Below are positions 8,728 to 12,736 of a stretch of DNA of 64,000 nt, piece after piece (position 1 is the first letter of the stretch; each line of letters opens with the position of its first letter). The notes under the pieces were generated by a model that worked only from the letters and a program-made list of their open reading frames with translations, was not told the DNA's origin and ran no database searches. Position numbers and translations under genes: made by a program. The stretch comes from Marinobacterium rhizophilum DSM 18822 (GTDB taxonomy: Bacteria > Pseudomonadota > Gammaproteobacteria > Pseudomonadales > Balneatricaceae). The stretch is from the NCBI RefSeq assembly GCF_000378045.1, contig NZ_KB899098.1, positions 1 to 64,000 of the forward strand, in the 5' to 3' direction.

Positions 8728-9423
8728 TCAGGTCAGACCTTTGTGTCTGGCCTGATCCAGAACCACGCTCAGAACCTCATCAATGCTCATCTGGGTCGAG
8801 TCCAGAATCACCGCATCGGCCGCGGGTTTCAGCGGCGCTACTGCGCGGTTCATATCACGGTCGTCACGTGCTTGAATATCAACCAATATCGTTTCAAGGC
8901 TAGCACCGAGCCCCTTATTTATCAACTGGTTATAACGACGCCGCGCACGTTCTTGTGCGCTCGCATCCAGATAAATTTTCAACTCGGCAGCGGGAAACAC
9001 CACAGTACCCATATCACGTCCGTCTGCGATCAGGCCGGGTGCATCGCGAAATGCCCGCTGGCGCTCCAGCAACGCCTCACGCACGGGCCCGATCGCGGCT
9101 ACCCGCGACGCATCTTCACCTGCCTCTTCGGTACGAATGAGTTGCGTTACCTCTTCGCCTTCAAGCAGGACCTGCACCTCATTATCTTCGCCATGCGGCA
9201 CAAACTTCACATCCAGATGCGCCGCCAGTACCACCAGCGCTTCCTCGTCATCCAGCGCAACACCATGGTGCCGTGCAGCCAGCGCCGTCAGCCGGTACAG
9301 TGCACCACTATCCAGCAAATGCCAGCCCAGCTGGCGCGCCAGCAAGCGACAGATAGTCCCCTTGCCTGAACCGCTTGGACCGTCGATGCTGATTACCGGC
9401 ACACTCATTTGCTTCGAGACCAT
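8728..9423 (-). CDS. cmk: Cytidylate kinase
   Basis: A 231-residue kinase that phosphorylates CMP/dCMP. The P-loop GPSGSGKGT occupies residues 15-23, and [11 protein letters not shown] and the lid region RARRRYNQL follow. The start at 9423 is chosen because AAGGAG lies eight bases upstream; a second Met five codons later lacks a ribosome site. Its ATG overlaps the stop of the tyrA-aroA fusion by one base (TGATG), indicating translational coupling. Confidence 0.96.
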
Positions 9424-11636
9424 CAGTCCCTCTCCTTACCTATTCTGAACCCCGCTCGACAAGCGAGGGCAACAAATTCGGGAAACGCAGCCTCAAGACA
9501 GGCACATTCCGCTATATAAATATCACCATCTGCACGCAACGATGCGACCGCAAAGGCCATGGCAACACGGTAGTCACCGCCGGCATTCAGCGCCCCCCCA
9601 CCCATGGAGCCACCTCGAATACAGACACTGCCGGGCCCCATCAGGGCTTCTACACCCAGCTCACTAAGCCCCGTCACCACCGCCTGCAGCAATGTATCCA
9701 GCCCGTGGCGCAACTCACCCACACCTCGAATCCAGGTGGTGCCCTCAGCACAGGCCGCGGCAACCATCAACAGCGGCAACTCGTCGCTGGCGCGTGCCAG
9801 CAGTGCGTTCGGTACTTCTATCGCCTGCAAAGGCCGATAGCGCACACGTATATCCGCCACCGGCTCCCCCCCCACCTGAGTGGCATTTTCGAACTCGATA
9901 TCCGCGCCCATCAGTCGCAATATGTCGATCAGCCCGGTACGGGTCGGGTTAATGCCAACATACTCAAGCAGCAACTCGGAACCCGGTGCAATTGCCGCCC
10001 CGACAATAAAGCAGGCCGCCAGGGAGATATCCCCCGGTATATCTATGCGCGCCGCCTGCAACTGGCCGCCGGCCTGCACTGCAACCCGTCCATCGGAATG
10101 ATCCAGTGCCCAGCCAAGCCCCTGCAGCATTCGTTCGGTATGGTCTCGTGACGGTGTTGGCTCGCTCACCGTTGTGGTGCCGCTGGCGTAAAGGCCTGCC
10201 AGCAACAGCGCCGACTTTACCTGGGCGCTCGGAACCGGCAGCCGATGCCCAACACCGTGCAGCGGGTTACCGCCGCGGATGCGCAGCGGCGGCAAACCGC
10301 CTTCTGCCGTTTCTATTCGGGCCCCCATCTGCCGCAATGGCCGTACAACCTGCTCCATCGACCAGCTGGACAGTGAAACATCCCCCATCAAACAGGTGTC
10401 GAATGCCTGTGCCGCCAGCAAACCGGACAACAGCCGCATCGACATGGCCGAGCGCCCCAGATAGAGCGGCCCAGGCGGCGACTGCAGGCCGTGCAGGCCC
10501 ACACCGTAGATCTTCACGGCCCCCTGATGCGGCCCTTCTATCACCACCCCCATATCGCGAAACGCCTGCAGCGTCGCTAGGCTGTCTTCGCTTTCAAGAA
10601 AGCCCTCTATCCGCGTAATACCCTCGGCCAAGGACCCCAGCATGATGGCACGGTGCGAAATAGACTTGTCACCCGGCAAGCGCACTGACCCGGTCAACGC
10701 TGCGCCCTGATACGCGAGGTAATTTACCGGTTGGCTGTGTTGATTCTGTGAATATGCAGAACTCGACAGTATGCGACTGAAGTGATCCCGCGATGCCTTG
10801 GCACGGGTGAAGATGCCCAGCATGGCCTGGCTGTCAGCCGTGCTGATAGCATGGCGCAGCTTCTCGACGCCTGCACTGAAACGGTCAAGCTGCGCAAGTA
10901 TCGCATCGCTATTGCTGAGGCAAATGTCGTGCCACATGGTTGGATCGGAAGCTGCAATACGGGTGAAGTCGCGAAAGCCGCCCGCGGCGTAACGGAAAAT
11001 ATCGGTATTGGCGGCTTCCGCAGCCAGGGTATCCACCAGTGAAAATGCCAGCAGATGCGGCAAATGACTCGTCGCCGCCAGCACCTCATCGTGACGTGCC
11101 ACATCCATTTGCAGCACCTGCGCCCCTACGGCCTGCCACATTCTGGCAATCACCAGCGTGGCCTGGCGGGATGAGGCGGGCGTGGGGGTCAGTATGACCT
11201 TGTGACGCTCAAACAGGTGCTCATCGGCCGCCGCCACGCCACTCTTTTCGGAGCCGGCGATCGGGTGGCCCGGAACGAAGGTGGCAGGCAAGGTGCCAAA
11301 CACGGCCTGAGCGGCCTCGACAACATTGCCCTTGGTGCTGCCCACATCGGTCAGCAGCGTCTGCGGGCGCAGTGCCGTGCAGATGTCGGCCAGCACGGCG
11401 TCGGTGGCCTTGACCGGCACGGCCAGCACCACCAGGTCGGCGCTCGCGACGGCCTGGCGCAGATCCCGGGCAGCCTCGTCGATGACACCGAGCGCAAGGC
11501 CCGCCTCCAGCTCCGCCGGGTTGCGGTCATACCCGACCACTCGCTGGCAATAGCGCCGGTGTTTCAGGGCCTTGGCCAGGGAACCGCCGATCAGGCCGAG
11601 GCCAACCACCAGCACGTTATTGATGGAGAACTTCAC
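9423..11636 (-). CDS. Fused prephenate dehydrogenase / EPSP-synthase-like protein (TyrA-AroA)
   Basis: A 737-residue fusion known from Pseudomonas relatives. Residues 1-300 are a TyrA-type dehydrogenase: NAD loop [13 protein letters not shown] near residue 12, [10 protein letters not shown], and SHLPHLLAF. Residues about 308-737 are homologous to Aro[11 protein letters not shown] (K324, S325, R329), [34 protein letters not shown]618 in SDELP, and GDYRVAM. Several residues essential in EPSP synthases are changed, however. The GNSGT loop reads GRSAM (394-398), KRPM reads SWSM (W425), and RVKESDR reads RHGLDTL (643-649). The TyrA half should be active; EPSP synthase activity of the second half is doubtful. 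The start is GTG and overlaps the hisC stop by four bases (GTGA). Confidence 0.9.
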
Positions 11637-12736
11637 GCAGACAAAACCTCTTCCAGCGCCTGCAGGCAGCGCCGATTCTGTGCCTCCAGGCCAATGCTGA
11701 TACGCACATGATCAGGCATCTGATAGTTGGCCACCGGGCGTACGATCACGCCACGGCGCAACAGCTGCTGATAGACTGGCCCCGCCGGGCGCCCCAGCCC
11801 GACACAGACAAAGTTGCCCGCCGACGGAATCACCGAGAGCCCAAGCTGCTCAAGCCCGGCGACCAGCTGACGCATGCCCGCCCGGTTAGTCTCCAGCGTC
11901 CGCGCCAGGTACGCCCGATCCTGCAGCACAGCCTCAGCCGCGGCCAAAGCCGGCCCCGAGACATTAAAGGGCTGGCGCACCCGGTTCAGCAGATCCGTAA
12001 TGACCGTATTGGCGGCGGCAAAACCCACGCGCAAGCCCGCAAGCCCCCAGGCCTTGGAGAAGGTGCGGGTGACGATCAGGTTCTCATAGCGCGACAGTAA
12101 ATCCAGGCCATCGGGAAACTCGGGGTCGTCGCTGTACTCGGTATAGGCCTCATCGAGTACCAGGATCACGGACGGCGGCAGCGCATCCATGAAGGCGCAC
12201 AGCTGCGCACGATTCAGCCAGGTACCGGTGGGGTTATTGGGGTTGGCGATAAAGATCAGTCGAGTGCGCTCGGTCACAGCGCGCAGCATGGCATCCAGAT
12301 CATGGCCCCAGTCCAGCGCCTTGGTAACAACCGCCGTGGCGCAGCTGGCCTGGGTAATAATCGGGTACACCAGAAACGCGTACTGGGAATAGATAACTTC
12401 ATCGCCGGGACGCAGGAAAGCACGGGCGACCAGTTCGAGCACATCGTTGGAACCGTTACCCAGGGTGATGCAATCGGGCGCCAGGCCATAGTGGCGCTGC
12501 AGCGCCTGTTTCAGATGATAGCCACTGGCATCGGGGTAAAGCTGTAATTCGCCCAGCGCCTGCTGCGCGGCTGCCAGCGCCACCGGACTTGGACCCAGCG
12601 GGTTTTCATTGCTGGCCAGCTTGACGATATCGGTCAGACCCAGCTCGCGCTCGAGCTCTTGCGCCGGCTTGCCGGGGACATACGGCTGCAGCCCCTGCAC
12701 ACCCGGGGTGGCCAAGGCGATAAAATCACAACCCAT
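11633..12736 (-). CDS. hisC: Histidinol-phosphate / aromatic aminotransferase
   Basis: A 367-residue class I/II PLP aminotransferase. SNENPLGPSP, NPNNPTG and the PLP lysine in TRTFSKAWG (K228) are present. Its place between pheA and tyrA-aroA marks it as the second HisC copy of Pseudomonas-type genomes, which transaminates phenylpyruvate, 4-hydroxyphenylpyruvate or imidazole-acetol phosphate. A good ribosome site (AGGAG, eight bases) precedes the start, and the stop overlaps the next gene. Confidence 0.94.
   Translation of the reverse strand: MGCDFIALATPGVQGLQPYVPGKPAQELERELGLTDIVKLASNENPLGPSPVALAAAQQALGELQLYPDASGYHLKQALQRHYGLAPDCITLGNGSNDVLELVARAFLRPGDEVIYSQYAFLVYPIITQASCATAVVTKALDWGHDLDAMLRAVTERTRLIFIANPNNPTGTWLNRAQLCAFMDALPPSVILVLDEAYTEYSDDPEFPDGLDLLSRYENLIVTRTFSKAWGLAGLRVGFAAANTVITDLLNRVRQPFNVSGPALAAAEAVLQDRAYLARTLETNRAGMRQLVAGLEQLGLSVIPSAGNFVCVGLGRPAGPVYQQLLRRGVIVRPVANYQMPDHVRISIGLEAQNRRCLQALEEVLSA

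Follow-up and report, generated by a model that had tools for sequence, protein, structure and literature searches.

The TyrA-AroA fusion gene of Marinobacterium rhizophilum DSM 18822 raises the question of why a bifunctional protein would keep one half that lacks several of its catalytic residues. The gene lies in the 64,000-nucleotide stretch of DNA analyzed here (the window). An initial annotation, made from the sequence alone, proposed that three active-site loops of the AroA half are rewritten within an intact reading frame, that a functional aroA should be present elsewhere in the genome, and that the half may be either a pseudoenzyme that stabilizes or regulates TyrA or a domain with a new substrate. 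Throughout this work, catalytic sites carry the numbering of E. coli AroA, and other residues (e.g. R395 or Q357) carry that of the window's fusion protein.

The fusion gene and its operon

The features of the locus are listed in Table 1. The fusion gene is part of a minus-strand supraoperon that we take to be gyrA - serC - pheA - hisC - tyrA/aroA - cmk - rpsA, the names other than that of the fusion being recognized from sequence. Its start overlaps hisC by 4 bases, its stop and the cmk start overlap as TGATG, and AGGAG lies within its last codons; together with the uninterrupted ORF, these overlaps agree with the intact frame and overlapping neighbors described in the initial annotation. For Pseudomonas, a supraoperon gene order of this kind is described in the available portion of PMC1173090. 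Among named relatives, the closest matches found are in Marinobacterium sedimentorum (87%) and M. profundum (85%), in a search that possibly omits the record of the window's genome itself.

The protein contains PDH_N, PDH_C, and EPSP_synthase matches in one chain and, in this supraoperon context, reaches 1067.6 bits with NF011381, the model for bifunctional TyrA/AroA (cut-off 902), and 323.9 bits with TIGR01356 (cut-off 287.25). Because both scores are above cut-off, the AroA half would be labeled as an active EPSP synthase in routine annotation. The TyrA residues H124 and R226 are retained in all groups that were compared. NF011381 describes a protein in which both halves are catalytic; judged by its residues, the AroA half of the window fusion appears not to be.

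Table 1. Features of the fusion locus and the separate AroA gene of the same genome.
Feature	Position	Strand	Details
TyrA-AroA fusion gene	9423..11636	(-)	737 aa, GTG start, uninterrupted ORF
TyrA half, prephenate/cyclohexadienyl dehydrogenase	10767..11636	(-)	residues 1-290; sole PDH_N match in genome
TyrA C-terminal helix, G274/T277/H285	10767..10832	(-)	residues 269-290; proposed docking side on TyrA
AroA-derived half, EPSP synthase fold without full catalytic set	9426..10727	(-)	residues 304-737
Conserved block, Q357/D361/V365/E367	10485..10601	(-)	residues 346-384; proposed docking side on AroA
Loop GRSAM replacing GNSGT	10443..10457	(-)	N94, G96, T97 lost
Loop SWSM	10356..10367	(-)	W425 replacing R124
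Loop RHGLDTL	9690..9710	(-)	G645/L646/L649 replacing K340/E341/R344
Y689-R690	9567..9572	(-)	H385 lost, R386 kept
cmk (cytidylate kinase), follows the fusion in the operon	8728..9423	(-)	name from sequence, no family search
hisC-type aminotransferase, precedes the fusion in the operon	11633..12736	(-)	name from sequence, no family search
Separate E. coli-type AroA, L001	G000:C26:11504-12739		426 aa

Active-site residues are lost from the AroA half

The AroA half was aligned with E. coli K-12 AroA (L244) and with 164 further fused domains; among these 165 domains, 24 pairs are identical. In this alignment the three loops are exactly as the initial annotation had given them, and no canonical N-G-T, R, or K-E-R residues are found there: R395, A397, and M398 are at the positions of N94, G96, and T97, W425 is at R124, and G645, L646, and L649 are at K340, E341, and R344. 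A further loss, absent from that annotation, is the presence of Y689 at H385, and A716 is found at K411, where intact fusions mostly have T. The retained residues are K324 (K22), S325 (S23), R329 (R27), D351 (D49), S470 (S169), A471, Q472 (Q171), D618 (D313), and R690 (R386).

According to the accessible parts of two papers on other EPSP synthases (PMC12256929, PMC3411725), Asp313, Glu341, and Lys22 are catalytically important, and Lys22, Arg124, and Lys411 are PEP- or glyphosate-binding. Among the residues expected of an active EPSP synthase, the window's AroA half keeps K22 and D313 and has lost E341, R124, R344, and H385. We take R344 and H385 to have catalytic-site roles as well.

Three other genomes of the genus of the window (G001, G003, and G004) have residues identical to those of the window at all 22 compared sites, which makes a sequencing error in the loops unlikely, and a frameshift was rejected on the same grounds. 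The genome G002, also of this genus, differs at three sites, at which it keeps G96 and has D340 and M341.

AlphaFold modeled the AroA half as a confident EPSP synthase fold (mean pLDDT 89.9, pTM 0.73), and in a Foldseek comparison the model matched 5buf with a TM-score of 0.94 (by target length), so the fold itself is predicted to be that of an EPSP synthase. With catalytic residues lost and this fold retained under purifying selection (see below), the AroA half of the window fusion has very likely lost catalysis and is very likely a pseudoenzyme.

The same genome encodes a separate AroA

The genome of the window (5.36 Mb, 58 contigs, 100% complete, 2.48% contamination) contains three PF00275 genes, namely the fused domain, L002 (MurA), and L001, a separate AroA of 426 aa. 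That MurA had been mistaken for a second aroA was considered and rejected, as it is the third of these genes. L001 carries all 22 compared site residues, the site having been examined in the separate AroA of 8 genomes, the window's included. It shares 68% identity with E. coli AroA and 26% with the fused half; the fused half differs from this E. coli-type (class I) AroA in being only 26-27% identical to either the E. coli protein or L001. No other aromatic-pathway gene was recognized from sequence (no family search) among the ORFs surrounding L001.

The genome has one PDH_N match, which is in the fusion, and one chorismate synthase. A second TyrA that would render the fusion dispensable was considered, and none was found in the genome. 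In this inventory, no canonical EPSP synthase other than L001 and no TyrA other than the fusion was found; the second, functional-looking aroA that was predicted to lie elsewhere in the genome thus appears to be L001.

Catalytic residues have been lost repeatedly in the family

PF00275 genes are present in all 116 genomes of the family (f1), and fusions scoring above 1160 bits are present in 53. The 38 of these 53 fusions that were fetched come from seven genera, and every one of them keeps all ten key residues. Full-length E. coli-type AroA proteins lie above 444 bits among the matches listed, and no genome of these seven genera appears among the matches listed above this score. Since all 38 fusions checked in genera without a separate aroA keep the ten residues, ordinary variation was discounted as an explanation of the replacements.

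We refer to a fused domain that has lost key active-site residues as dead. There are 34 dead fusions, which are found in seven of the nine genera with a separate AroA (g1, 7; g3, 5; g4, 8; g5, 1; g6, 8; g10, 4; g12, 1). The separate AroA is in the same assembly for 33 of the 34 (truncated by a contig end in G087), and the exception, G084, is 90% complete. A dead fusion occurs in 7/9 genera having a separate AroA versus 0/7 genera without one (Fisher p=0.003), the 34 dead rows being related species and not independent events. Another 14 fusions, from g11, g12, and g14, retain an intact or almost intact site alongside a separate AroA, so redundancy is not always followed by loss; some of them have A96, and G105 additionally lacks R344 and S169. 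A96 is present in all eight g6 fused halves (L088-L091, L093, L095-L097) and in four g11/g12 fused halves that are otherwise intact or nearly so (G017, G029, G105, and G134). In E. coli AroA, A96 is a glyphosate-insensitivity change, according to the title of 1mi4.

In a tree of TyrA sequences, the dead fusion of G010 (g5) is placed as sister to intact g14 and that of G030 within intact g12. These placements imply at least three catalytic losses in the family, and a single loss for the whole family is unsupported. A fourth loss, in g1 separately from the g3/g4/g6/g10 clade, probably occurred, the forks that part the two being weak. In a tree of the separate AroA proteins, most f1 genera form genus-wise clades, and the protein of G010 groups with two other families.

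Nested inside the dead clade are six g10 genomes (L111-L116) without an AroA half. Their TyrA ORF is 314-316 aa long, and cmk overlaps the TyrA stop in three of them and lies 72-86 bases further in the other three. TyrA occurs on its own in these genomes and in other families, so dependence on the AroA half is not universal. The family counts leave out 15 of the 53 high-scoring fusions, G066 and G120 (at most a weak fused match), G071, G117, G119, and G127 (fusion in pieces), G114 (TyrA in pieces), and G086 and G136 (no fusion detected).

The AroA half is relaxed but under purifying selection

Values of omega were obtained with a codon model, in which long trees bring saturated synonymous sites. 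In the five tested genera that lack a separate AroA, the ratio of AroA to TyrA omega was 0.44-0.65; in the seven tested genera that have one, it was 1.36-9.3 (2.9 in g1; the g10 ratio rests on four divergent sequences). The AroA half is therefore relaxed in every tested genus with a second AroA, including g11 and g12 with their mostly intact sites, and the AroA-half omega above that of TyrA in g1 indicates that some relaxation is real.

In the four g1 species with an identical dead site, the AroA-half omega was 0.098 (lnL -3463.4 versus -3706.8 at omega 1), and for five g1 species it was 0.107. The values for g4 (0.064), g6 (0.102), and g3 (0.044) each fit much better than an omega fixed at 1. 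The AroA half could be lost most simply through a stop after TyrA, and there is no stop in any of the 34 dead fusions (L108 ends at a contig edge). The uninterrupted frame, the omega of 0.098, and the confident fold model uphold the earlier view that the rewritten loops are not the result of random decay.

Conservation is concentrated in a block linked to fusion

As a reference set, we used the 204 AroA-half positions that are invariant across the 38 intact fusions. At these positions the residue is kept in 92% of dead cases inside residues 346-384 versus 62% outside, and 18/28 block positions versus 35/176 outside positions are kept in all 34 dead domains (p=4e-6). Among five g1 species, 2/39 block positions vary versus 126/378 elsewhere (site positions left out). 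Retention in unfused AroA has the opposite sense: 11 catalytically intact, unfused AroA proteins of the same subfamily keep 93% of residues outside the block and 82% inside (L241 was omitted and its relative L242 used), and 49 fused AroA proteins outside the family keep 95% outside and 99% inside (49/76 loci rows, the 27 omitted being f1, Endozoicomonas, or cut), this comparison having been made after the block was seen, though on separate sequences. The 39-residue segments that best separate the 49 fused from the 11 unfused proteins start at 350-357 and overlap those best kept in dead domains. Within the block, each of Q357, D361, V365, and E367 is present in 94-100% of the dead f1 set (34 domains) and in 12/12 of family f27, versus 27, 18, 0, and 36% of unfused AroA, respectively.

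A corresponding patch is found in the last helix of TyrA, where G274, T277, and H285, positions found by scanning, are kept in 94-100% of the dead and intact fused groups and in 12/12 of f27, with the exception of T277 in 13 g11/g12/g14 fusions (69%). With identical TyrA rows counted once throughout this comparison, G274, T277, and H285 are kept in 0, 18, and 9% of 11 unfused TyrA proteins and in 7, 29, and 43% of 14 TyrA proteins of other families without an AroA half. In the six g10 TyrA proteins without an AroA half, H285 is replaced by Tyr in 6/6, and G274 and T277 stay. Both patches are mostly lost together in f6, which is fused, and the fusion-typical G368, P369, and Y392 of the conserved stretch are lost in 12/12 of f27. 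Because 8/10 unfused sequences fall on one side of the TyrA tree, there are few independent contrasts between fused and unfused proteins.

A global anticorrelation between retention in dead and in unfused domains was expected and was not seen; per-position retention in the two is uncorrelated (Spearman 0.09, p=0.20). Faster drift of the pocket than of the rest was also considered. There was no significant difference in g1, g4, g3, or f27, with 11/20 site positions varying in g1 versus 205/417 elsewhere, and the opposite was found in g6, in which 4/20 pocket positions vary versus 231/417 elsewhere (p=0.002). No chain spanning both halves was present among the 40 PDB sequences listed. From the conservation patterns on the two sides, we infer that block 346-384 and the last helix of TyrA may form a docking face between the halves.

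Fates of the AroA half in the wider order

A separate AroA (E <= 1e-80) was found in 60/293 sampled genomes of the order, 50 of them outside the family. Among these 50, 12 (f27) have a fused domain of full length that is strongly altered, 6 (f6) have fusions that range from nearly intact to strongly altered, and 6 (f44) encode TyrA followed by an AroA-derived domain of ∼300 aa without most of domain II. Intact fusions stand beside a separate AroA in G042 (Endozoicomonas) and G171, which belong to no comparison group; 21 genomes have a TyrA-only match, and G323 and G380 have none.

The relation of the f44 domain to AroA has an hhalign probability of 99.5% in a single comparison. At the f44 loci (L305-L310, from G292, G271, G158, G312, G331, and G222), the AroA-derived domain is barely recognizable, most of domain II is missing right after the conserved block, and the TyrA-side patch residues are mostly lost. 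The altered f27 domains (12 loci within L277-L293) have Tyr at 341 in 9/12, Arg at 344 in 12/12, and Glu at 411 in 9/12, and these recurring pocket residues might mark a lineage-specific ligand site. At L295 (G263, f47), also one of the 50, the TyrA ORF is 306 aa long and the family match continues through four stop codons; this AroA half looks like plain decay.

Discussion

An explanation of this locus has to account together for the observed residue loss, the separate AroA, the recurrence of the loss, the purifying selection, and the linked conservation on both sides of the fusion. We consider it probable, though far from certain, that the C-terminal half is a dead pseudoenzyme of EPSP synthase fold that is kept as a docking or stabilizing part of TyrA. 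On this account, a free-standing E. coli-type AroA, which we infer came first, by transfer, would have made catalysis by the fused half redundant, and the active site, chiefly its PEP side, would then have eroded until no EPSP synthase activity was left. The TyrA half would depend on contact with the domain, and for that reason the domain would have been retained. Q357, D361, V365, and E367 would form an inter-domain docking face with G274, T277, and H285, the two patches being in physical contact, and this face would affect TyrA by keeping the sole dehydrogenase of the tyrosine pathway folded, oligomeric, or correctly tuned. Of the two options raised initially, a pseudoenzyme that stabilizes or regulates TyrA is favored over a new substrate because constraint on these sequences peaks on the fusion-linked stretch and the pocket differs among genera; a new ligand may nevertheless occupy the pocket, above all in g6.

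The conserved part of the pocket bears on whether the dead domain instead binds shikimate-3-phosphate (S3P) or a related phosphate and signals shikimate flux to TyrA. The residues that we take to form the S3P side (S23, R27, S169, A170, and Q171) are kept in 34/34 dead f1 domains and D313 is kept in 30/34, the PEP side is largely lost (N94 kept in 3, R124 in 10, E341 in 11, R344 in 12, and H385 in 0), and the g6 pocket varies less than the rest of the domain. However, K340, E336, P197, and T200 on the S3P side are kept in only 11, 10, 19, and 21 of the 34, and T97 and R386 on the PEP side in 27 and 25, so the split between the two sides is not clean. In addition, site positions in g1 as a whole vary as much as the other positions do, Q171 is changed in 12/12 and R27 in 10/12 of f27, and f44 is without most of domain II, all of which make such signaling unlikely. 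A broader version, in which the redundant half repeatedly became, in different lineages of the order, a dedicated subunit-like regulator, with TyrA depending on its fold and the remaining half-site sensing S3P and setting activity, we regard as quite doubtful.

The domain could also be on its way out, its frame held open for now by translational coupling to cmk. The overlap of the fusion stop with the cmk start and the AGGAG in the last codons, the absence of the domain from part of g10, f47, f8, and others, the stops in G263, and the higher AroA/TyrA omega ratio in genera with a separate AroA are consistent with slow decay of this kind. Coupling puts no constraint on amino acids, yet omega is ∼0.10, omega = 1 is rejected in g1, g3, g4, and g6, and 0/34 dead fusions show a stop. 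Moreover, cmk overlaps the TyrA stop directly in 3/6 of the domain-less g10 genomes, so coupling needs no AroA domain; as the sole reason for the open frame it is insufficient, and we think decay in progress improbable. Use of the rewritten pocket on a different substrate, as a new enzyme, would fit the full fold, the retention of K22, R27, D313, and R386 in the window protein, and the identical replacements in four species, but the replacements vary between and inside genera (R/D/S/H at 94, W/V/E/I at 124, L/V/A/S/Q at 341), the most conserved part lies outside the pocket, and the operon neighbors in the window are the usual genes, which makes a new enzyme very unlikely. Finally, it is hardly credible that the AroA half is still an EPSP synthase with unusual residues. 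Its score is above the curated AroA cut-off of TIGR01356 and K22 and D313 are kept, but R344 and H385 are lost along with E341 and R124, which the accessible parts of PMC12256929 and PMC3411725 give as catalytic and PEP/glyphosate-binding, respectively, and a canonical AroA is also in the genome.

These genomes show, in natural replicates, what becomes of half of a bifunctional enzyme once its chemistry is redundant: in a single order and a single operon, the half has variously been retained dead, shortened, lost, or left intact. They suggest that gene fusion may add a docking face beyond co-expression, and they identify single residues for testing. They also suggest that the automated name EPSP synthase, as given by NF011381 and TIGR01356, is wrong for this half, an error that bears on metabolic models and on the prediction of glyphosate sensitivity from genomes.

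Comparison with known systems

In the literature searched, which is without most subscription journals, we found no paper on dead AroA halves that are full length, constrained, and recurrent, on an EPSP synthase pseudoenzyme, or on EPSP synthase in Marinobacterium, and, apart from the P. syringae case below, none on inactive domains of fusion proteins. The nearest structures are those of the Acinetobacter baumannii EPSP synthase (5buf/5bs5), which is 48% identical to the window's AroA half and matches its model with the TM-score given above; unlike the window protein, that enzyme has GNSGT, KRPM, and RVKESDR intact. With the Pseudomonas-type bifunctional TyrA-AroA (TyrA-AroF, NF011381), the window fusion has domain order, operon, and fold in common, but its AroA half is without the full catalytic set, and a separate gene presumably supplies EPSP synthase.

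The general idea is already in print for P. syringae. The available text of PMC1173090 describes a truncated AroF in TyrA-AroF together with a separate aroF that was probably acquired by transfer, and its authors suggest that the AroF remnant may be a new regulatory domain. As is likely for the window genome, catalysis by the AroA half was abandoned where a free-standing aroA was probably acquired, and TyrA was kept. In the same portion of that source the deletion is called N-terminal once and C-terminal once. The P. syringae remnant has ∼200 residues deleted, according to what is available of PMC1173090, whereas the window domain is full length and constrained; the f44 relatives, which are without most of domain II, do have a large deletion. 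Unlike the P. syringae remnant, the loss in f1 recurs in several genera with a common conserved stretch.
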